A stretch of 41,405 nt of DNA, taken from positions 1-41,405 of the IMG/VR virus record IMGVR_UViG_3300033146_002014. One strand, written 5' to 3'. Source of the DNA: a virus. This document shows, piece by piece, positions 15,853 through 34,399 of this stretch (position 1 is its first letter; each line of letters begins with the position of its first letter). Made by a program: the position numbers and the translations under genes. The notes under the pieces were generated by a model. That model had not been told where the DNA came from, did not search any database, and was given only the letters and a program-made list of their open reading frames with translations.

Positions 15853-17173
15853 ATGAGTAAAAATTTAAACAATGTTGATATGGTCTATCACACACTTGTT
15901 AAAGATGTGTTAGAAAATGGTACCATACGAAATGATAGGACTGGCACGGGAACTATTTCTGTTTTTGGTAGAATGATTAGGTTTAATTTAGAAGACGGTT
16001 TTCCGTTATTAACAACTAAAAAGATGTGGATACCTGGTATTATACATGAATTATTATGGTTTTTGAATGGTGATACAAATATTAAATACTTAGTAGATAA
16101 TAAAGTTCATATTTGGGATGAATGGGCCAATGAGAATGGAGACCTTGGACCAGTTTATGGTCATCAATGGGTGAATTGGCCTAACCCAATAATATTAGAC
16201 GATGGTAGTGGTGAAGGTTGGTTTGATGATGGTATTAACCAAATACAAAATGCTATTAATACTTTGAGAACTAATCCAGATTCTCGTAGAATTATGGTTA
16301 GTGCATGGAATGTTAGTGATTTATATAATATGGCGTTATTACCGTGTCATTACGCATTTCAATTTTATACAACTGAATTAACTTTAGAAGAACGAGTTAA
16401 TCTATTAAAACCTTACGGTTTTGATGCTTTGACAACTGAGGCTAGAGATAAGTTCATGAAAGAACATAATGTACCAACCCGTAAATTATCGTTAAAGTGG
16501 AACCAACGTAGCGTAAACAAAAACTGCGCCTTAATACAGTAATGTATTTCGAATAACTTACCTAAACGGGGGAACTCTAAACAAGTTAGGTTGTAGACAA
16601 TCCCGTACTAAATTTTATAATAATATGGTTATAGGACTACCTTTCAATATCGTGAATTTAAATCGTTATCTGAATGTGCTAGATACTACAATGTAAGAGT
16701 GATAATTTTCCAGAATATTATTATAAATAAATGTGTAACGACTATCCCGAAAGGGAGTACATTCAAGTGAATGGAAATGGTAAGAACCCTAAATTTGGGT
16801 TGTGATATAGTCTAATCTGTATGGAAACATACAGCAGTTCATAAGAGAACGGTATATGATTAACGACCATATACGAATATAATGGGACACAGGATTAGGT
16901 TTACCATATAATATTGCGTCATATGCATTTTTAACACATATGGTGGCACAACAAGTTAATATGGTGCCAGGTGAATTGATTGCTGATTTAGGTGATACAC
17001 ATATTTATTTAAATCATGTTGATAAACTTAAAGAACAATTAGAGAGGGATTCATATAATCTACCAAAATTAGAACTAATGAAAGCAGATGATATTTTTTC
17101 ATATAGTTTTGAAGATTTTAAAATTGTTGATTATCAATCACACCCAACAATAAAAATGGATATTTCTGTATAA
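15853..17173 (+). CDS. thyA: Thymidylate synthase, split by a group I intron
   Basis: Exon 1 is 15853-16514 and exon 2 is 16885-17173; joined they encode 316 residues in frame. The enzyme methylates dUMP to dTMP with methylene-tetrahydrofolate. Signatures present are [35 protein letters not shown], the catalytic Cys165 in [17 protein letters not shown] joined to [13 protein letters not shown] across the splice, and [11 protein letters not shown]. Reading through without splicing stops after 229 residues. An insertion of about 30 residues before the WNQRS motif accounts for the length over the 264 of E. coli ThyA. T4 td is interrupted by a related intron near the same conserved motif. A terminator follows directly. 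Confidence 0.93.
16515..16884 (+). ncRNA. Group I intron, T4 td-like
   Basis: A 370-base intron with the core of subgroup IA phage introns. The 5' splice site GCGU (16511-16514) pairs with GCGC shortly downstream, with the expected terminal U-G pair (P1). ACGGG (16566-16570) pairs with CCCGT (16602-16606). The R and S elements GACTAT (16740-16745) and ATAGTC (16807-16812) form P7. CTGTATG-GAAA-CATACAG (16817-16834) is a hairpin with a GNRA tetraloop, P9-like. The intron ends in G at 16884. The stretch around ACGGGGGAAC and GTAGACAATCCCGT is very close to my memory of the T4 td intron. No intact endonuclease gene lies inside. Confidence 0.9.
16642..16722 (+). pseudogene. Remnant of intron homing endonuclease (NUMOD1-like)
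   Basis: Within the P6-side loop, one frame reads [19 protein letters not shown], similar to the NUMOD1 helix-turn-helix (F-K-S-L-S-E-A-A) found at the end of many HNH or GIY-YIG intron endonucleases. Stops flank it and no start is present. T4 td carries I-TevI in a corresponding P6 loop, so this is plausibly what is left of such a gene. Confidence 0.5.
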
Positions 17174-21037: not shown

Positions 21038-22715
21038 AAATAATTTATTAGTATTAAAATTATTAAAGGAGAGTGGAGAAGTATCCAACGATACTTATGA
21101 GGTACTTAAAGATATTTTTTCTAAAAACCCAGAACTTAGACAAAAACTAAGTCATGTAAACACTGATAAAGAAAGAGCTGGTTTATTAAAAGCATTTATC
21201 GATAAAATTGGTGTACCACCTAATAAATTATCTGATATTGAAAATAGTGTTAGAGATACCGCGAGTAAACATGATGACCAAAATATTGATACTTTTGATG
21301 ATTCTAATGTAGATTCATCTAATACTGATACAAGTTTCGATAAACGAGAAGATGAGAATGGTGAACCAACTAAATACCATAACACTTCCGTTGATGGTGG
21401 AAAACCTATTCATAATGAAGAGGTAAAACCAAAAATAAAAAAAAATGAGTTATTAACTATAATAGCAAAAAATAAAATGGGAACTGATAAATGGAGAAAA
21501 ATAGCTGAACGAGCTTTAGCTAAATCAAATGGTAAATCGTTAAATGAATCTAGGATTGATTATGGTGATATGGAAGAACGAATGTTACCTAAATTAGAAC
21601 GAGAATTAAGAGAAAGAAAACATTCTTTAGGTACACACCCAATATTCCCAGAAAGTGATGAAACACATTTTGAAGAAAAGATTATAAATCAAAGATTTAT
21701 CGATGTTGTAAATAGTGTTAAAAGACACTTTGATGTTAATAAAATTGATAATAATTTTTTAATACAAAATATGGGTGTTCTTGTTGGTGATTCGATGGAA
21801 ACTGAGGATGGTCACCAAAAAGAATTAGAAGATTTAGCGGTTAGAATGGTTATCGATGAATATGATATACCAGATGGTGCTATAGAATTTGATGTAAAAT
21901 TAGAACCACAAATAAATTTATTTGGTACTAAACCTAACCCAACACCAAAAACTGTTGAAACTGAATTTGAAAATCATGATGAGATTGAATTAGCGAATAA
22001 AGAAGTTTATAAGCGTAGATTCATTAACGCAATGACACAGGGTGCTGCTAAAAAGTCTACTCATATGTTTCATTTAGTCGATGATGAGTTAGCTAGAATT
22101 GACCCTCGATTACCTAATCAGTATAGTAAAATGATGTCTGCTGCTGATTATATGTATTATATTTATGATGGTAGTACAGATGCTGGTAGAGTAAACGGTG
22201 GTGTGGTACGAGTTGAGTTTCCTAAAAATGAGGGTGAGGTACCAAAAATTATTGCACGAGCAGTAGTTTTCCCAGTCTTAATACATGAGATAGTTAAAGG
22301 TGTTATGGAGATATTAGCATCACACGGTTTACCTAGAGATAGTAAAATACAAAAATGGGTTATTGGTAAAGCAGACTTTGTATCAGCTGAAGCTTGGGAT
22401 ATGAGATTGGGTCCAGGATTATGGGGTAAATTTACAGAACTAATCCCAACCGAAGATTTTAATCTAAAACATCAAATTTACATGGAATTAGTAGTGTTAC
22501 CAGTGGACGATTTCAATGTTTCTATGAGAGAAATTATGGCTGGTACTAATACTGGTAAAAAAATTATAACCGATATTATTAGTAATATTAAAACTGAGAT
22601 GGAAACTGAAGCATTTGAAGAGGCCATGAACGAAAAAAGAGAAACAGATGATGATATTGGTGGGAATCTGGGTCAAGAAGATTTAGATGATTTTAATTTA
22701 GATAATTGGATTTAG
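21021..22715 (+). CDS. Large hypothetical protein, probable virion or assembly
   Basis: A 564-residue protein from the ATG at 21021; an upstream ATG at 20913 would overlap the previous gene by 125 bases. The first 200 residues are charged and low in complexity, with Asp/Ser stretches. A folded region follows at about 270-540: NQRFIDVVNSVKRHFDV, RRFINAMTQGAAKKSTHMFH, YSKMMSAADYMYYIYDG, ARAVVFPVLIHEIVKGVMEI and KADFVSAEAWDMRLGPGLW. I know no function for it. It is followed by a strong terminator and lies just ahead of the packaging genes. Confidence 0.65.
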   Translation: MAKLTKNNLLVLKLLKESGEVSNDTYEVLKDIFSKNPELRQKLSHVNTDKERAGLLKAFIDKIGVPPNKLSDIENSVRDTASKHDDQNIDTFDDSNVDSSNTDTSFDKREDENGEPTKYHNTSVDGGKPIHNEEVKPKIKKNELLTIIAKNKMGTDKWRKIAERALAKSNGKSLNESRIDYGDMEERMLPKLERELRERKHSLGTHPIFPESDETHFEEKIINQRFIDVVNSVKRHFDVNKIDNNFLIQNMGVLVGDSMETEDGHQKELEDLAVRMVIDEYDIPDGAIEFDVKLEPQINLFGTKPNPTPKTVETEFENHDEIELANKEVYKRRFINAMTQGAAKKSTHMFHLVDDELARIDPRLPNQYSKMMSAADYMYYIYDGSTDAGRVNGGVVRVEFPKNEGEVPKIIARAVVFPVLIHEIVKGVMEILASHGLPRDSKIQKWVIGKADFVSAEAWDMRLGPGLWGKFTELIPTEDFNLKHQIYMELVVLPVDDFNVSMREIMAGTNTGKKIITDIISNIKTEMETEAFEEAMNEKRETDDDIGGNLGQEDLDDFNLDNWI

Positions 22716-22740
22716 AAAAGGTGGGATTTCCCACCTTTTT
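22716..22740 (+). terminator. Rho-independent terminator
   Basis: GGTGGG (22720-22725) pairs with CCCACC (22730-22735), extended by A/T pairs and followed by a T run. Confidence 0.9.
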
Positions 22741-22742
22741 TA

Positions 22743-22773
22743 TTGCTTTTTATTATAATATATCATATTTTTG
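22743..22773 (+). promoter_or_regulatory. Bacteroidota-type promoter
   Basis: TTG at 22743-22745, 20 bases, TATTTTTG at 22766-22773. The ATG follows 4 bases later, a nearly leaderless arrangement. It partly overlaps the end of the terminator. Confidence 0.75.
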
Positions 22774-22777
22774 TTGT

Positions 22778-23395
22778 ATGGGAATACTAAATCTTAATGA
22801 CATATCAAATGAGTATTACAATATTGGAGATTTTAATTTTTATACTAAATCATATGATTATAAATTAAGTGATACTCAGCAATCATTTATTAAATTACTC
22901 GAAAATAATTCATCGAAAATTATTTTTGTACAAAAAAGTAGACAAGTTGGGTATACGACATCAGTTAGCCTTTTTAGTTTCAATTCAATCCAAGAGAATA
23001 AAAACATTTTACATATTTCATCAACATCATTTGGTGCTAAATATGCTATTGATAAAATTAGAGGGTTAGTTACCAAATATAAACCTAGTATGTTGGCTAA
23101 TAAACGAAATTCTTTTAATTCTAAAGAAATTGTTACTAATAAATCAACATTTAAATCTATTTTTAATAGAATGGTTTTAAATGAACAATGTAAGCGATAT
23201 GATTATATTTTTATTGATGAATATTCTAGTCAATATAAAGTTGAACTAGGTCAACTTTTAGCTTATTGTTTACCATTAATAAAAGTTGATGGTACTATAG
23301 TTATTTCGAGTGATAAACAATTATATTTAGGTGAAGAAGGTACGACCCATTTTGATTTTACTGAACCACAATTTAATCGATTTGTACTAAAATAG
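22778..23395 (+). CDS. Stand-alone terminase-type ATPase domain protein
   Basis: A 205-residue protein resembling only the ATPase half of a large terminase. It has KSRQVGYTT at residues 53-61, a deviant Walker A like the KPRQAGVST of the terminase next door and the KSARVGYSK of lambda gpA, then a strand and helix (NILHISSTSFGAKYAIDKI) matching the terminase ILILANKQDMAQEFLGKI segment, and Walker B YDYIFIDE at 141-148. No nuclease domain follows. The ATG at 22778 is supported by the promoter. The N-terminus MGILNLND resembles MGVLGLPN of the capsid-like gene. It lies immediately before terL but under its own host-type promoter. Possible roles are packaging regulator, interference factor or decayed duplicate. 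Confidence 0.65.
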   Translation: MGILNLNDISNEYYNIGDFNFYTKSYDYKLSDTQQSFIKLLENNSSKIIFVQKSRQVGYTTSVSLFSFNSIQENKNILHISSTSFGAKYAIDKIRGLVTKYKPSMLANKRNSFNSKEIVTNKSTFKSIFNRMVLNEQCKRYDYIFIDEYSSQYKVELGQLLAYCLPLIKVDGTIVISSDKQLYLGEEGTTHFDFTEPQFNRFVLK

Positions 23396-23437: not shown

Positions 23438-26400
23438 ATGTTAACAAAACAACAACAATTAGAAGAATATGCTAAATGTATAATTAACCCAGCTTACGCT
23501 ATTGAAAGTTTTTTAGAAACTTTTGATAAAACACAAGAGGGTTTCGTACCATTTAAATTGTTTGAAAAACAATTAGAAATCATTGATGGTTATGAGAATC
23601 ATCGTTTTAATATTGTTGCTAAACCTAGACAAGCTGGTGTTTCGACAACCACAGCGGCTTATGCAGCTGTTAAAGTTGGTTTTGCCGACCCAGATAACCC
23701 AGAAAAAATTCTAATCTTAGCTAATAAGCAAGATATGGCCCAAGAATTTCTTGGGAAGATTAAAGATTTCCTAGCACAACTACCAAGATGGATTTGGGGT
23801 AGTGATTATTATGGTACATCAGAAAAAGAAAAGAAATCAATTTTCATTACCGATTCAAAAAAACACTTAATATTACCAAATAAATCAGAAGTTAAAGCTG
23901 TTGCGACATCTAAAGATGCTCTAAGGGGTTATACCCCAACACATCTAATAATGGATGAGGCGGCATTTATTGACGATGGTGAGATAGTATTTGGTGCGGC
24001 CCTTACATCGTTAGGTTGTTTAGTAAAAGATACATTAATATTAACTAATGATGGTTTAGTAGAATTAGATGAATTGGTCACCGAAAAAGAAAAAATAGGT
24101 TTTACTGATTTAGATACACCACATAAAGTTTGTAATATGGACGGGAATATTGTTGATGCTACCCAAACATTTGTTAGTGAATACGCAACAACCTATCGAA
24201 TTTTAACTAAAACAGGTATAGAATTAGAGGGTAGTTTTAAACACCCATTATTAGTAAACGATGAATGGGTTAAAATGGAAGAATTAAAAGTAGGGGATGA
24301 AATTAAAGTTGGTTATAATCAAAATATATTCGGTAATCACGATATTTTTGAATTCGATTATAAATTACACCCAAATGAATTCGATATTAATATCCCTAGG
24401 GATTTATCACAAAATTTAAATTTCGTCTATTTAATGGGGTTATTTGTTGCTGAGGGCAATTTCCAAAGTCGTGGTATAACAATAACTAATGTTGGTCCCG
24501 ATATTGTTAATTTTTTATTAAATGACGACGCTAATTTAGGTAAAGCTTTCACTAAGGTAGATGATAGACATTATTCATTATCGTCTACTAAATTAATTAG
24601 GTGGATGGATGCATTTGGTTTGAAAAAACATAATGCGAAAAATAAAGAAATCCCATTACCAATTTTGAAAATGTCGAAAGACGTTATTTCAGCTTTTTTA
24701 CAAGGGATGTTCGATGGTGACGGAATGTCAACATATAAAGAGATTAAATATTCCTCAACATCTAAAAAATTAATTAAACGTCTCCAAACTATTTTATTAA
24801 ATTACGGTATTAAATCACATATACATTATGTTGAGGAGGAAACTAGTGAGTCATCTATAATACCTAATAAAAGCCACGTTTGTAAATTATACAATTTATT
24901 TATCTATTCTAACCACGCGTTAAATTTTTATGATAACATAGGTTTTAGATTAAAACGAAAACAAGTTAACCGCAATAAGTTAATAAATAAAAAAGTTAAT
25001 TCAAGGTTCGTTGAAGTGACGCAACAAAGTATTTTAAAGATACTTAAAAAATATCATATCCCTAAATATAAAGTTAGGTTTTTAGATAGATTTTTTAATA
25101 GTAAGTATGCACGATTATCATATGACAGTTTGGGTAAATTAATTGATTACATTAAACACTATTATAATACGATTGACGGTGATTTAGATGAATTATTAAC
25201 CCAAAAATATTATAATGAAAATTATTTTTATGATGAAATAGTTGATATAATCGTTTCAAAAGATTATACTTACGATTTACACGTACCAGAAACACATTCA
25301 TTTATTAGTAATAGCGTTATTAGTCACAATACTGGTGGTCACGCAACACTGATTAGTTGTGTTGTTGACGATACTTTCGTTTTTACCGACAAAGGGATAA
25401 GGCAAATTAAAGATTTTATTCCAACACAAAACAACGGACCACATTTAATTGAAGAGTACCATGTTTTAGGTAAAAATAAATTACGAAGTGGTAATATATT
25501 CCATAATAATGGATTAGTTAATACTATAAAAATAAAAACCGTTAATAGTGAATTAGAAGGTAGTTACCCACATAAATTATACGCTTATTCAAACGGTAAA
25601 TATGGTTGGGTTAAAATGGAAGATTTAAAAGTTGGGGATTATGTTGCTCATCAATATGGTATGGGTATTTGGGGTAATGACGATAAGGTTAATTTTAAAT
25701 ACGAACCATCAACGAAAGAAAAAAACAGCCTTGGTGAAATAAATGAAATTACTAACGAAATGGCTTATTTTTTGGGGTTATATCTAGCAGAGGGTTCAGT
25801 TTACAAATCAATTAATAACGATGGTGACCATATTGGGACATCGATAACGTTAACGTGCTATGATGATATGACACCTGTATTTAATGGTATTGGTTTGCAA
25901 GTACAGTCATATGATAATTTACACTATACTGTTGGTTCTAAAGAGTTGGGTGCTTTTATGGAGTATTTAGGGTTTAATTTATCATTACACGCCAATGATA
26001 AAGTGATACCGAATAAATTATTAAGTCTATCAAAAGAAAAAACCAAATATTTGTTACGCGGTATATTCGATGGTGATGGTTTTAGTAGAAAAGATAAGGG
26101 TTATATTGGTATTGGATTGAGTTCCGAAAAATTAATCAAACAAATAAGGGTATTATTGAATAATTTTGGTATATTAACTGACTACTTCGTTGTGAACACA
26201 AAACCAACAAAATTAGTTAAAAGTTATTCAATGAATTATCGAATACAAACCAATGCAGTTTCAGCTAAAATATTCTACAAAGAAATTGGGTTTGGGTTTG
26301 AGAGGAAGCAAGTGAATGAACATGTCTTAAATGATAAAAAAATTGATTATTCCGACCCAAGAGATATTATACCTAATTCTAAAGAGTTAGTTAAAGAAAT

Positions 26401-27868
26401 TTATAGAGAATATAATGGGACTCAGAAACATCTAAAAGACATGGGGGTTTACATTCTACCAAATGGTAGTGGTAATAAAAGTAGGATGGGGCTTCTTAAA
26501 TTAATTGATTATGTTAAAGACGATTTAAGTGACGAGTTATTATCTAAATTAAATAAACACATTTCATATAATTTAAAATGGTGTAAAATAAAAGAAATAT
26601 CATACCACGAAAACTATACATATGATTTTTCACTACCAAATGATAATAATGATTTTTGGGCCCATTCAGTTATTTACAACGGTATTTTAGGTCATCAAAC
26701 GCCAAATGGTTATGATAAATTATATTATAAAACGTATGATGGTGCTCAAACTGGTGATAACGATTTTAATATTATTGAGATGCGTTGGTATCAAGACCCT
26801 CGTTATAATAAAGGTTTAATTTGGACTAAGGGTGATGAAACTATTACTGAAACTATATTCACAGTAGAATGGTTAGAAAAACGTAGACAAGATGGGTGGA
26901 AACCATCATCATCGTGGTATGAAGCGATGTGCCGTGGTATGAATAATGATAAACGAATGATTGCTCAAGAATTAGATGTTTCATTTGTTGGTTCTGGGGG
27001 TAATGTTATAGACGACGAATATATTATGTATCACGAAGAAAACTATGTTCAAGAACCAGAATGGATAAGTGGTAAAGATAATGAATTTTGGATATGGAAA
27101 AAGCCGATTGAGGGACATCAATATCTTTTAAGTTCTGATGTTAGTCGTGGTGATGGTGAGGATTCATCAACATTTACTATCATTGATTTCACTACAATGG
27201 AACAAGTAATGGAATATAAAGGTAAAATTCAACCAGATTTATTAGCACCATTGATTGATGAATATGCATCATTATACAACGCATATACCGTGGTTGATAT
27301 TACTGGTGGATTAGGGGTTGCAACTGTATTAAAACTATTGGAAATCGGTTTCAAGAATCTACATTATGATGACCCACGAAATAAAATATTATCTAGTAGA
27401 GCTGATTTACAAAAATTTGCCAAAGATAATGGTCGAAAAATCCCAGGATTAAATGTTAACTCAATACGATTACCAATGATTGCACTATTCGAACAATCAA
27501 TAAGAGAAAATTTAATTAAAGTTAGGTCTAAAAGATTAATATCTGAAATGAGAACATTTGTTTATCGTAGTGGTAGACCAGACCATATGGTTGGTTATCA
27601 TGATGATTTATTAATGGCAATGGCTATGGGTTTATGGGTTTTAGAACACGCATTTAAAAATTTAGAAAAATTAGAGAAACAAACAAAAGCGATGTTGAAC
27701 AGTTGGACTATGACTGGTGGAAATGTTGTTGAGGATAAAACTGAAGCCGTTTTTGTATCTAAAGATAAAAAAGTAATAAGGAGCAAACCTAAATTTCACC
27801 CAACCGTTTCTAAAAATATGCAAGACCCACGTGGGGAGTATTTATGGTTGTTTAGTGGAATGAGATAA
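23438..27868 (+). CDS. terL: Terminase large subunit (gp17-like) with two inteins
   Basis: A 1476-residue precursor. Residues 194-631 and 641-1087 are inteins, leaving a mature protein of 591 residues, close to T4 gp17 (610). It packages DNA into proheads by ATP hydrolysis and cuts the concatemer. The ATPase part has deviant Walker A KPRQAGVSTT (62-71), Walker B LIMDEAAF (D173, E174) and coupling motif LIS-TPNG, which is split by intein 2. The RNase H-like nuclease part has SSDVSRGDGEDSS, YTVVDITGG and GYHDDLLMAM, supplying the metal-binding acids. Both inteins have N-terminal Cys and Thr as the next extein residue. A late-type motif precedes it. The nine residues TGGHATLIS between the inteins belong to the enzyme. 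Confidence 0.93.
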   Translation: MLTKQQQLEEYAKCIINPAYAIESFLETFDKTQEGFVPFKLFEKQLEIIDGYENHRFNIVAKPRQAGVSTTTAAYAAVKVGFADPDNPEKILILANKQDMAQEFLGKIKDFLAQLPRWIWGSDYYGTSEKEKKSIFITDSKKHLILPNKSEVKAVATSKDALRGYTPTHLIMDEAAFIDDGEIVFGAALTSLGCLVKDTLILTNDGLVELDELVTEKEKIGFTDLDTPHKVCNMDGNIVDATQTFVSEYATTYRILTKTGIELEGSFKHPLLVNDEWVKMEELKVGDEIKVGYNQNIFGNHDIFEFDYKLHPNEFDINIPRDLSQNLNFVYLMGLFVAEGNFQSRGITITNVGPDIVNFLLNDDANLGKAFTKVDDRHYSLSSTKLIRWMDAFGLKKHNAKNKEIPLPILKMSKDVISAFLQGMFDGDGMSTYKEIKYSSTSKKLIKRLQTILLNYGIKSHIHYVEEETSESSIIPNKSHVCKLYNLFIYSNHALNFYDNIGFRLKRKQVNRNKLINKKVNSRFVEVTQQSILKILKKYHIPKYKVRFLDRFFNSKYARLSYDSLGKLIDYIKHYYNTIDGDLDELLTQKYYNENYFYDEIVDIIVSKDYTYDLHVPETHSFISNSVISHNTGGHATLISCVVDDTFVFTDKGIRQIKDFIPTQNNGPHLIEEYHVLGKNKLRSGNIFHNNGLVNTIKIKTVNSELEGSYPHKLYAYSNGKYGWVKMEDLKVGDYVAHQYGMGIWGNDDKVNFKYEPSTKEKNSLGEINEITNEMAYFLGLYLAEGSVYKSINNDGDHIGTSITLTCYDDMTPVFNGIGLQVQSYDNLHYTVGSKELGAFMEYLGFNLSLHANDKVIPNKLLSLSKEKTKYLLRGIFDGDGFSRKDKGYIGIGLSSEKLIKQIRVLLNNFGILTDYFVVNTKPTKLVKSYSMNYRIQTNAVSAKIFYKEIGFGFERKQVNEHVLNDKKIDYSDPRDIIPNSKELVKEIYREYNGTQKHLKDMGVYILPNGSGNKSRMGLLKLIDYVKDDLSDELLSKLNKHISYNLKWCKIKEISYHENYTYDFSLPNDNNDFWAHSVIYNGILGHQTPNGYDKLYYKTYDGAQTGDNDFNIIEMRWYQDPRYNKGLIWTKGDETITETIFTVEWLEKRRQDGWKPSSSWYEAMCRGMNNDKRMIAQELDVSFVGSGGNVIDDEYIMYHEENYVQEPEWISGKDNEFWIWKKPIEGHQYLLSSDVSRGDGEDSSTFTIIDFTTMEQVMEYKGKIQPDLLAPLIDEYASLYNAYTVVDITGGLGVATVLKLLEIGFKNLHYDDPRNKILSSRADLQKFAKDNGRKIPGLNVNSIRLPMIALFEQSIRENLIKVRSKRLISEMRTFVYRSGRPDHMVGYHDDLLMAMAMGLWVLEHAFKNLEKLEKQTKAMLNSWTMTGGNVVEDKTEAVFVSKDKKVIRSKPKFHPTVSKNMQDPRGEYLWLFSGMR
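24017..25330 (+). mobile_element. TerL intein 1 (LAGLIDADG type)
   Basis: 438 residues. It starts at Cys in SLG/CLVKDT, has the block B His in GSFKHPLLV, two endonuclease motifs (LMGLFVAEG and LQGMFDGDG) and ends SHN before Thr. All expected splicing residues are present. It is inserted just after the Walker B region. Its domains resemble those of intein 2 (RLKRKQVNRNK against GFERKQVNEHV). Confidence 0.93.
25358..26698 (+). mobile_element. TerL intein 2, C-terminal Gln
   Basis: 447 residues, in the coupling motif between LIS and TPNG. It starts CVVDDTFVF, with block B His in EGSYPHKLY and endonuclease motifs FLGLYLAEG and LRGIFDGDG. It ends GHQ before Thr: the usual terminal Asn is Gln. A few natural inteins with terminal Gln are known to splice. 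It is a likely sister of intein 1. Confidence 0.92.
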
Positions 27869-28178: not shown

Positions 28179-31100
28179 ATGGGAACTGATAAAAATAATG
28201 GTAAACAATTAACCGTCTTCCAAAGAATGAATAAAGTTTTTGGTCCAGAAGGTGTTAAAGTACCTCAAAATAAAACTAATCGTTATTCTTTAGGTAATAA
28301 AGAAATTCTTAGGACACAATCTAAGAGTGAATTAGAAAAAACAAAATTACAAGCACAACAAAATTTACATCTTAGTCAAACTTGGCGAAAAGTAGATGGT
28401 GAAATGTATCAACAATCGATACATTATGAAACAACTAGGATTGGTTCTTATACTGATTTTGAATCAATGGAATTTTTCCCAGAGATAGCAGCCGCATTAG
28501 ATATTATGATGGAAGAATCGACTACACCTAATGATAAAGGTGTTATTGTTAATATTCATTCATCATCTAAAAGGGTTAAACAAATATTAGAAGATTTATT
28601 TTTCCATAGATTAGAATTACATACTAATTTACCAGCATGGGCTAGGAATGTGTGCAAATATGGGGATAATTTTGTATTTTTAAATATTGATGATAAAGCT
28701 GGTATTATTGGTTGTAGACAAATGCCTAATTTTGAAATGGAAAGGCGAGATGGTGATTTACATAGTGAACTGTTATCTAAGAATAATATTGATAGTAGTG
28801 GGTCTGAATACGATAATAGAATTAAATTTAATTGGAAAACTAAGGATATAGAATTTAATTCATGGCAAATTGCGCATTTTAGATTATTAGGTGACGATAG
28901 AAAATTACCATATGGTACTTGTTTAAAAGGTGATACTAGAATTAATATCGATAATGGTGTTAAATTCATTTCTGATATAACCAAAGGTGATATGGTTTAT
29001 AGTTTTAATACTAAAACACAAGAAAAAGAATTATCACCAGTTTTAGATACGGTTAATTCTGGGAAAAAAGAATGTTTTAAAATTAGTACTAGACATAATT
29101 TTATTGATGTTACAAAAGAACATAAAGTAATGGTGTTAAACGATGACCACGAATTTATTTATAAAAATGTGGTGGATTTGAAATTGGGTGATTTATTAAT
29201 AATAAATAAAAATGAACACACAAATAAGTTAATACCGATTGATAAATCAAAACCTATTGAAAATAAAAATGGTTGGTTTAATCAAATTGATTTAATACCA
29301 TCGTTCGTTGACGAAGAATTTGCACAATTATTTGGGTTTCTAATTGGTGATGGATGGATTAATCATACAGTAAATACCGTTTCATTCGCGTTAGGTGTTG
29401 ACGAAGAGGTGAACGAATATTATATTGATTTATTAAGGCGTTATTCTGGTGGAAACCCTAGAGTTGATAATAACGGTAAACAAGTTGTTTTATCATCTAA
29501 GTTATTAACAACCATTTTAAAAAGAATGGGTTTTGGTGGTAAATCTTATGAGAAACGATTACCAGAATGGATTTTTAATACAACACCAGAAATCCAAAAA
29601 TCATTATTAGCTGGTTTAATGGATGCCGATGGTTGGTTTACTAAAGATGAATGGACAGTTGGGTTCCATATTGAATTAAACAATAATCAATTGGTTAAAG
29701 ATTTAAAAATATTATTACAGCGAATTGGTTATAAATCTGGGTCTATTAGAAGTCGACTACGTAATAAACCAATCATTGAAGGTAGGGAAATTAAAACAAT
29801 TAGAAAAAGTTATATGATAACCTTCTTTGATTCGTATCTGAAACAAATGATAAAATATGATAATAAGAATAGGTTAACTGATGACTATATATTAGAACCA
29901 ATTAATAAAATAGAATCAATTGGGTTACATGAAACTTATGATATCTACGTTGAAAATGAGAATCATAATTTCTATGCAAACAACATTATTGTTCACAATT
30001 CCTTTTTAGAAAAGGCTAGACGTATTTGGAAACAATTATTATTATCCGAAGATGCTATGCTAGTGTACCGTGTAACAAGGGCCCCAGAACGTAGAATATA
30101 TAAAGTTTATGTTGGAAATATAGATGATGCCGATGTTGAGGCTTATGTAAACAACATTGCTGATAGATTTAAACGAGCTCCAGTAATAGACCCACAAACT
30201 GGTCAAATTGATTTAAGATTCAATCAAATGGGTCAAGACCAAGATATTTTCGTCCCAGTTAGAGATGAGAATGCACAAACACCTATCGATACTTTACCTG
30301 GTGCAGCTAATCTTGACGCTATCGCAGATATAGAATATTTACAAAATAAGTTATTCACAGCTTTACGCATACCAAAACCATTTTTAGGTTTTGATAGTGC
30401 AATTGGTGATGGTAAAAATTTAGCTATTCAAGATATTAGATTTTCTAGGACTATTAATCGTATTCAACAAGCGCTTATAATGGAGTTAAATAAAATCGCC
30501 ATTATACATTTATATTTATTGGGTTTAGAAGATGATTTAGATAACTTCACATTGACATTAAATAACCCATCAACACAAGCCGAAATGTTGAAAGTTGAAC
30601 ATCTGCAAACTAAGATTAATTTATATACATCAGCGGTTGTTGATTCTGGTAATGGTTTCGCACCAATGTCTATGACAAGAGCTAAACGTGAAATATTACA
30701 TATGTCTGATGATGAAATTAAACAAGATTTATTAGAACAACGTATAGAGAAAGCTGCTGCGGCTGAATTAGCTAAAACTGCTGCAATTATTAAACATACT
30801 GGTTTCTTTGATAAAGTTGATAATATTTATGCTGACCCAGAAGCTTTAGCTAAAGCCGATGAATTAGGTGATGAAGAAAATGGTGGTGAAGGTGATGAAG
30901 ATTTAGGAATGGGTGGTGGCTCATTCGGTGGTGGTGGTGACCTAGATTTTGGCGACGAAGGTGATGAAGAAAATATCGATATTGAAGATGCTGCTAATGA
31001 TTTAGCTGATACCGAAGGTACTGAAAATAACGATGAGGATTTAGGTGATTTTGGTGAATCATTAAAGAAAACAAATAAGTTATTAAATGAAGCTAAACAT

Positions 31101-32662: not shown

Positions 32663-34399
32663 ATGGATGATTTAAAAATATTGAAACCAGGTGAATTCGG
32701 TACCAAGGGATATTTAATTGAATATGACGCTGGTTATATCGACCCAAAAGATAAACGTAATCTAGCGTTTGTTAATGAGGTCGCTAAAATTGAAAGAAAA
32801 GAAACGGTAATCGCTGAACCCTTAGTTGTAACAGTAGTTTTACAAAAATATGGTGTTGAAAACGCTAATGGTAGGATATACCCAGAACCAATTTTAAGAA
32901 GAGAAGCTGATTTATACCAAACGTTAATACAAGAGGTAAGAGCTGTTGGTGAGTGTGTTACAAAGGAAACTGAAGTTTATACAATTAATGGGTGGGTTCC
33001 AGCTAATAATGTTAAAGTTGGTGATGAAATTTACACATTAAATTTGGAAACGAATCAAATACAAATACAACAAATCACGCATTTAAGTGATACGATTTAT
33101 AATGATGAACTAATACACATATATAATAAATCATCGTTAGACATGGTTGTAACTAAAAACCATAAAATTGTTTTATGGGATAGGAATAATAACCCTTATG
33201 TTTTAAGAGCCGATGAATTATATGATAAAATTAAAAATAATGATTCAAAAGTAAACCATTCATATATAAAGCGTGGTGGTGATTGGATAGGTGAGGATAA
33301 AGAGACTATTGAAATCTCTGGTTATGAAATACCAATGGAAGACTGGGTTGCTTTTATGGGTATTTATTTATCTGATGGTCATTCTACTGGTACGAAAGGT
33401 GGTAAACAAACAAATTCAGTTATTATAACACAAGTTAAAGAAATTTCATCTAAAAAAATCGTTGAATTATTAGACCGTTTACCATTTGATTACACTTTGT
33501 CTAATAACAGACAATATATAATAAACGATAAGGATTTACATGATTTGTTGTATCAATTAGGTAATTCATACACTAAATATATACCAGATTATATTAAAAA
33601 TTTATCGCAAAAATATTTAAACATTTTAATAGAATGGTTGTTATTGGGTGATGGTTGGAATAGACATGATAGTAAAGGTGTAACGTTGCGCGAATATTAT
33701 ACAACATCACGTCAATTAGCTGATGATGTCAATGAGGTGTTTTTAAAATTAGGTAAAGGTGGTAGTATACACACTCGAACACCTAAAGATAGGTTGATTG
33801 AAGGTCGATTAATTTTAAGTGAAAATTCTAAAACATTATATGTTGTTAGTGAACATAAAACAAAGGGTGTTTATTTAGATAGTAGATTTACTAAAGTTGA
33901 AAAAATAAAATACAATAACCATGTATATGGTATTACTGTTGATAATGGTACTTGGTTGATGCGATATAACAACAAAATAAGTTGGACACATAATAGTGAC
34001 CATCCAGAAAGTTCAATAATATCCGTTGAGAGAATATCCCATAATATTACAAAGATTTGGTGGGAAGGTGCAACTCTAATGGGTGAAATGGAAATTTTGA
34101 TGTCACCAGGTTTTATTAATTATGGTATAATTTCTTGCCAAGGTGACCAAATCGCAAATTTATTACGAAAAGGTATTAGAATCGGTGTTTCTTCAAGAGG
34201 CGTTGGTTCATTAGAAGAAATAGATGGTAAGAACATTGTTCAAGACGATTTTGAAATAATCGGTTGGGATATTGTAGTTTCTCCATCAACACCTGGGTCA
34301 TGGATGTTCAAAAATAGAGAAGAAGCACAACCTTTTGTTGAAAATAAGATAAAAAATAAGAATTTATTGGTTGATAAACTGAACAATTTCTTATTATAA
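32663..34399 (+). CDS. Prohead core protease (gp21-like) with one intein
   Basis: A 578-residue precursor; removing the intein (residues 98-444) leaves 231 residues, close to T4 gp21 (212). It is the serine protease that matures the prohead by cutting core and capsid proteins. Visible are ENANGRIYPEPIL near the N-terminus, the catalytic His in the joined VGE-SDHPESSII, and the nucleophile Ser in IGVSSRGVGSL, which follow the herpes-type prohead protease pattern. The intein interrupts the gene two residues before the His, so the unspliced protein should be inactive. It lies between the core-like genes and the scaffold as in T4. Confidence 0.9.
   Translation: MDDLKILKPGEFGTKGYLIEYDAGYIDPKDKRNLAFVNEVAKIERKETVIAEPLVVTVVLQKYGVENANGRIYPEPILRREADLYQTLIQEVRAVGECVTKETEVYTINGWVPANNVKVGDEIYTLNLETNQIQIQQITHLSDTIYNDELIHIYNKSSLDMVVTKNHKIVLWDRNNNPYVLRADELYDKIKNNDSKVNHSYIKRGGDWIGEDKETIEISGYEIPMEDWVAFMGIYLSDGHSTGTKGGKQTNSVIITQVKEISSKKIVELLDRLPFDYTLSNNRQYIINDKDLHDLLYQLGNSYTKYIPDYIKNLSQKYLNILIEWLLLGDGWNRHDSKGVTLREYYTTSRQLADDVNEVFLKLGKGGSIHTRTPKDRLIEGRLILSENSKTLYVVSEHKTKGVYLDSRFTKVEKIKYNNHVYGITVDNGTWLMRYNNKISWTHNSDHPESSIISVERISHNITKIWWEGATLMGEMEILMSPGFINYGIISCQGDQIANLLRKGIRIGVSSRGVGSLEEIDGKNIVQDDFEIIGWDIVVSPSTPGSWMFKNREEAQPFVENKIKNKNLLVDKLNNFLL
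32954..33994 (+). mobile_element. Protease intein (LAGLIDADG type)
   Basis: 347 residues, from Cys in VGE/CVTKET to THN before Ser. Block B is VTKNHKIVLW; endonuclease motifs are FMGIYLSDG and LIEWLLLGDG. All splicing residues are canonical. Confidence 0.94.

Follow-up and report, generated by a model that had tools for sequence, protein, structure and literature searches.

The MCM-a and MCM-d inteins of haloarchaea occur as none, a, d and ad alleles, with double occupancy above expectation. The parts of that study drawn on here present no evidence of co-homing and describe inteins that home well alone or into single-intein alleles and poorly together (PMC10643990). In mycobacteriophages, the terminase large subunit (TerL) is an intein hotspot, and the sites TerL1-a and TerL1-b can be one residue apart; according to the sections of the paper considered, these sites lie at the P-loop of terminase_1 proteins, and two inteins in one protein are not described for them there (PMC5050341). 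Two inteins in one TerL are known from Microcystis phage Mic1 (PMC7156551, MN013189). Two inteins per protein are also found in T. kodakarensis Pol and P. abyssi CDC21, where the extein spacing is 85 and 48 residues, respectively (PMC8966425). These are the closest explicit values in the literature searched, outside which many intein papers lie, and no published spacing shorter than nine residues was found in it.

The window analyzed here, that is, the whole stretch of DNA examined, is an IMG/VR contig of 41,405 bases. Its ORF 23438-27868 on the plus strand (1476 aa, free of internal stops) encodes a T4-type TerL with two inteins, termed a and b, that are separated by nine residues (Table 1). 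The locus resembles the haloarchaeal MCM-a/MCM-d system in that two putative homing inteins share one ATPase gene and all four allele states exist. It differs from that system, as far as the cited parts of the mcm study go (PMC10643990), in its host, a phage terminase instead of an archaeal helicase, in the distance of 27 bp or nine residues, and in a linker that provides evidence for separate movement. Unlike the mycobacteriophage sites, again as described in the sections considered (PMC5050341), sites a and b lie beside the C-motif of a T4-type TerL and are filled in the same protein. The ATPase-domain intein of Mic1 sits at the C-motif position of intein b (LLTG-C...SHN-TPKG), whereas the second Mic1 intein lies hundreds of residues off in the nuclease domain, and site a is empty in that phage. 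Inteins in TerL (known from the parts considered of PMC5050341) and two inteins per TerL (Mic1, PMC7156551) are therefore not new as such; the nine-residue spacing with both sites filled, its recurrence across lineages and a linker recording separate arrivals appear to be new, within an incomplete coverage of the literature.

Table 1. Intein and extein segments of the TerL gene and further inteins in the window.
Feature	Position	Strand	Length or residues	Remarks
TerL N-extein	23438..24016	+	residues 1-193	Walker A KPRQAG, Walker B MDEAAF, C-end SLG; from ORF/translation and gp17 profile match
Intein a	24017..25330	+	438 aa, residues 194-631	Cys1, block B GSFKH, C-end SHN, +1 Thr
Middle extein TGGHATLIS	25331..25357	+	nine residues (632-640)	C-extein of intein a and N-extein of intein b
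Intein b	25358..26698	+	447 aa, residues 641-1087	Cys1, block B GSYPH, C-end GHQ, +1 Thr
TerL C-extein and stop codon	26699..27868	+	residues 1088-1476	TPNG motif, nuclease domain DVSRGDG, HDD
Intein in portal protein (gp20, T4-like)	28920..29999	+	360 aa	
Intein in prohead protease (Peptidase_S77, gp21)	32954..33994	+	347 aa	

The linker DNA at 25331-25357 (27 bases) reads ACTGGTGGTCACGCAACACTGATTAGT and encodes TGGHATLIS. Translation of the ORF upheld to the base the boundaries given by the first-pass annotation, which had placed the SHN end of the first intein at 25330 and the Cys start of the second at 25358 with the 27-base TGGHATLIS segment between them. Site b is located within the TerL C-motif (S-TPNG), and site a nine residues upstream of that motif. 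Joining the exteins yields a 591-aa protein that aligns from end to end with intein-free TerLs at 55-63% identity, in agreement with the earlier proposal that excision of both inteins restores a continuous terminase segment from Walker B to TPNG. This protein has the Walker A and B motifs, C-motif and nuclease domain of a T4-type terminase large subunit. T4 gp17 was matched by a profile of the intein-free alignment (E 3e-45) with both the ATPase and the nuclease domain covered, and Pfam Terminase_6N scored slightly below its cut-off. The genes downstream are also of T4 type, namely portal (gp20), prohead protease (gp21) and major capsid protein (gp23). The nearest named TerL relatives are distant (30-34% identity) and belong to Microcystis phage Mel-JY01, the Flavobacterium phages immuto and an uncultured 484-kb phage.

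Some further features of the window were recorded. The head-assembly genes carry four inteins within 10 kb, two in TerL and one each in the portal and prohead protease genes. TerL is immediately preceded by a short TerL-ATPase-like ORF (22706-23395) whose resemblance is limited to a weak Walker A match; the upstream ORF of records L007-L009 (322 aa) shares 44% identity with TerL across the ATPase region. A thymidylate synthase gene is interrupted (15853-17173), its N-terminal ORF stopping at 16542 and an apparent C-terminal part spanning 16940-17173. The approximately 400 bp inside it could be an intron, and a search of the region against Rfam gave no match at the gathering score.

Intein-free TerLs have the equivalent residues TGG[RHK]...LIS directly before TPNG, and the matching segment in T4 gp17 is slightly longer. 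Since the intein-free homologues contain them, the nine residues are, as judged by alignment, terminase and no part of an intein, just as the first-pass annotation had read them. Empty alleles at sites a and b display the precise in-frame absence of both inteins from homologous host genes. Intein a has the residues of a class 1 intein (C1, H76, H437, N438 and +1 Thr), and so does intein b (C1, H72, H446, Q447 and +1 Thr), its terminal Gln being an accepted variant; in both cases these residues are invariant across eight aligned members. The C-motif (site-b) intein family nearly always ends in Gln (GHQ, at 26696-26698 in the window), a rare terminal residue, and its TerL hosts are very diverse. 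Gln-ended inteins are known to splice, some of them slowly (PMC4031507).

The ends of intein a agree exactly with the matches to the NCBIfam models intein_Nterm and intein_Cterm (ORF residues 194-273 and 610-632), and TIGR01445 and TIGR01443 both exceed their cut-offs for it. On intein b, TIGR01445 scored 19.2, below the cut-off of 24.5; because the splicing-domain sequence models score this intein under cut-off, its fold was modelled. The AlphaFold models (intein a, pLDDT 83 and pTM 0.85; intein b, pLDDT 85 and pTM 0.88) both match the TliVMA homing intein 7qss (E approximately 4e-22), and other solved inteins match as well. Each intein is thus predicted by these models to be a Hint fold with a LAGLIDADG domain. 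TliVMA, a Hint plus LAGLIDADG endonuclease protein and the closest solved fold for both inteins, differs in its host, an archaeal V-ATPase, and in sequence (18% identity in the structural alignment). Pfam LAGLIDADG_3 (PF14528) matches both inteins, and the acidic residues of the LAGLIDADG motifs are kept (GLFVAEG and GMFDGDG in a, GLYLAEG and GIFDGDG in b), so that the two endonuclease domains of the window appear intact by motif. End models for intein a, and LAGLIDADG_3 matches, modelled Hint folds and precise empty alleles for both inteins, support the initial view that these are two genuine inteins. In several other doubles, one or both endonucleases are degenerate by motif, and intein a of L032, L034 and L147 is cut down to 226 aa. 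Inteins pass through a cycle of gain, fixation and decay, and the apparently degenerate endonucleases of some doubles fit this cycle.

The degenerate pattern HN-TGGxxx(L)I(S)-C has an expectation of 0.00 in shuffled window sequence, which excludes chance. It matched 14 IMG/VR records, 13 of which are in-frame double inteins; one match, L027, was rejected as a double and judged to be a chance hit. A GTDB genome scan with the double pattern gave two matches (L348 and L349), both by chance, and thus pointed to no bacterial host. Protein scans for the intein families raised the count to 19 IMG/VR doubles besides the window, including L157, which was counted on a length equal to that of L155 together with an identical intein b. 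Exactly nine residues separate the inteins in all 14 distinct doubles that were cut out, and such doubles occur in several TerL lineages. The first-pass annotation had called two inteins this close unusual; the spacing is indeed unusually short, but the same double recurs in about 19 other records.

Allele states, called from patterns and profiles on contigs, were of four kinds: empty (e.g., L005-L013, L022), a-only (L015, L021), b-only (L017, L177) and double. As in neighboring double inteins of the mcm type, each site is also singly occupied in related alleles. A TerL survey with an intein-independent pattern matched at least 120 stretches; among the matches listed, 118 TerLs were classifiable, and these comprised 114 empty at both sites, three b-only and one a-only. 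Inteins also occupy other positions of T4-type TerL, at either Walker motif, at HDD and at the nuclease motif that precedes DVSRGD. Three-intein TerLs are present in L025, L029, L033, L035, L138 and L156, in combinations of the Walker A, a, b, nuclease DVSRGD and HDD sites. In L190, L191, L192, L193, L198, L203 and L219, TerL is apparently split at Walker B into a short N-terminal ORF followed by a separate ORF. The second ORF of L190 starts with an intein C-half (...SSN-CAFIE), resembling fractured genes with split inteins, and L190 and L191 combine the Walker B split with inteins a and b.

Regarding ancestry, the site-a inteins of other phages share 61-64% identity with intein a of the window, and their site-b inteins share 42-51% with intein b; the two window inteins are 29% identical over their full length. 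In a tree of 94 inteins, built like the other trees by quick methods, all 50 b inteins form one clade (support 98) and 29 of the 31 a inteins form one main clade (support 99). The a inteins of L155 and L223, which have Ser-Asn ends, are weakly placed outside the main a clade and suggest a second, separate colonization of site a. A 33-row tree puts all a and b inteins on one side of a branch of modest support (82). Forcing the two window inteins to be sisters was rejected (delta lnL 323, p-AU 0.0004). As judged from these trees, each site has its own old, site-specific intein family, found alone in other phages too, and the similarity of a and b would reflect at most an old common ancestry of the two families.

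The movement of the inteins can be followed relative to their hosts. The TerL DNA of L047, which is empty, is 99.7-99.8% identical to that of L125 and L140, in which intein a is cleanly inserted, and this is a very recent gain or precise loss of intein a. The minimum number of changes on the extein tree is at least 9 for the double state, at least 19 for site a and at least 14 for site b. The doubles L124, L030 and L138 are placed on different TerL branches among intein-free relatives, and their inteins are 91-97% identical compared to 75-80% for the exteins, a pattern that points to horizontal spread. At the DNA level, these three and L028, all four from different metagenomes, have inteins that are 93-98% identical in terminases that are mostly 72-80% identical. 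For L124 and L030, identity is 97.9% in intein a and 97.8% in intein b, compared to 79.5% in the N-extein, 72.2% in the C-extein and 21 of 27 bases in the linker; synonymously changed codons amount to 2-4% in the inteins and 35-41% in the exteins.

Because host DNA sits here between two mobile elements, the 27 bp of linker record whether these arrived jointly or separately. Five of the nine linker codons differ between L124 and L030, a divergence reached by none of 875 nine-codon intein segments (maximum 3) and by 158 of 327 nine-codon extein segments. Similarly, five codons differ between L124 and L138 (7 of 811 intein segments as diverged) and six between L124 and L028 (0 of 718). In these three of six pairs, which concern four phages and 27 bp with the true donors outside the sample, the linker diverges like terminase, and the DNA between the inteins does not appear to have been inherited with them as in a composite co-homing element. 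A linker that diverges like terminase and not like the inteins suggests that a and b home independently of each other and that their conversion tracts are very short. Inner tracts of this length are unexpected, as homing in T4-type phages generally co-converts flanking exon DNA (PMC2988022). In the parts considered, the haloarchaeal mcm study points the same way as the linker (PMC10643990).

The linkers of L030 and L138 and those of L138 and L028 differ by two bases each, and partial co-transfer is possible in these pairs. The left 14 bp of the L030 linker are identical to L124; they include a CGA codon for Arg, which 1 of 36 empty sites has. Ahead of site a, L030 and L124 both carry a GGA codon, present in 1 of 83. 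The right 13 bp are one base off L138 and L028, and the last 12 bp that all three have in common, ACACTTATATCC, were found in 0 of 155 empty sites. The L030 linker thus looks like a mosaic, and two separate conversions with edges meeting inside the 27 bp would be its simplest reading. TerLs with site a filled carry b in 8 of 17 cases versus 3 of 117 in the survey (p 1.6e-6). This co-occurrence could hint at linkage, but we claim no statistical link, as significance is lost in phylogenetically independent pairs (median p 0.13-0.22).

We consider it likely that the two inteins of this TerL are independent homing elements whose separate target sites lie 27 bp apart, the doubles having probably been built stepwise. 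Each intein would fold as its own Hint domain and excise itself by the standard four-step reaction, to give ...SLG-TGGHATLIS-TPNG..., with the nine residues acting as C-extein and then N-extein, or the reverse. Each endonuclease would recognize its own site plus about half of the 27-bp linker as the inner half-site. Each intein may then have invaded an allele whose matching site was unoccupied, with hardly any conversion, or none at all, beyond its own half of the linker, and the double state would probably have been assembled one intein at a time. A more specific version is put forward tentatively and seems to us possible though rather doubtful: two endonuclease half-sites would together make up the linker, homing would proceed via ultra-short gene conversion (approximately 15 bp or less on the inner side), and the inteins would enter, leave and swap independently at sites that nearly touch in an essential motor gene.

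The closely related a and b pair in TerLs that are only 75-80% identical, and the strong raw co-occurrence of the two, could instead mean that both inteins and the linker co-home as a single mobile element, as would be expected from double-strand-break repair with empty recipients. Such a block would carry its linker along, and the diverged, host-like linker between near-identical inteins (L124 versus L030, L138 and L028) therefore argues against it; so do the mosaic-like linker of L030 and the very inefficient co-homing into empty alleles reported in the parts of the haloarchaeal mcm study considered (PMC10643990). Unsupported by the linker DNA in three of six pairs, block transfer is in our opinion improbable. 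The first-pass annotation had also suggested a jump to a nearby site as a possible origin of one intein from the other, here taken as a local duplication or jump over nine residues. The full-length identity of a and b is in line with this, and the branch grouping all a and b inteins allows an ancient common origin. However, both inteins are closer to same-site inteins of other phages, their clades are faithful to site, and, because the sister pairing of the window inteins was rejected, a local jump did not make the pair of this phage. A recent jump in this phage is ruled out by the tree and the AU test, and derivation of one intein from the other next to it is highly unlikely in general.

The double might also be kept for terminase regulation, with conditional splicing delaying packaging, and not as two parasites. 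TerL inteins have been proposed as sensors in phage Mic1 (PMC7156551), and some doubles persist with both endonucleases degenerate (L032/L034/L147). Terminase nevertheless works without inteins, given the 114 of 118 TerLs surveyed among the matches listed that are empty at both sites, and the frequent gain and loss at both sites as well as the precise empty allele at near-identical DNA speak against a retained function; we regard regulation as very unlikely. Cys1 and +1 Thr at both sites make it chemically conceivable that cross-splicing excises both inteins together with the linker to give a shortened alternative TerL. That product would lack the nine residues beside the C-motif, a segment that all intein-free homologues shown contain, and each intein is modelled with a complete Hint domain, which leaves cross-splicing barely plausible. 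All records being metagenomic, an assembly artefact or chimeric contig had to be weighed too, but it is hardly credible in view of the 19 other records, mostly from different metagenomes, that carry the double in frame with inteins 32-98% identical between records.

With two independent homing inteins side by side, as favored here, this locus is a natural minimal-distance test of how neighboring inteins affect each other, by help, by blocking or not at all; so far this has been studied in haloarchaeal mcm. Protein splicing, too, is put to a hard test here, with a single peptide of nine residues doubling as C-extein and N-extein, and the many phage alleles, which cover all four states, are usable for experiments. 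If the ultra-short conversion proposed above were true, doubles would arise only stepwise, each step leaving its trace in a mosaic linker. The short linker suggests that these inteins have spread through phage terminases singly, and that the pair has neither travelled as a unit nor arisen by one intein copying itself into the next slot.
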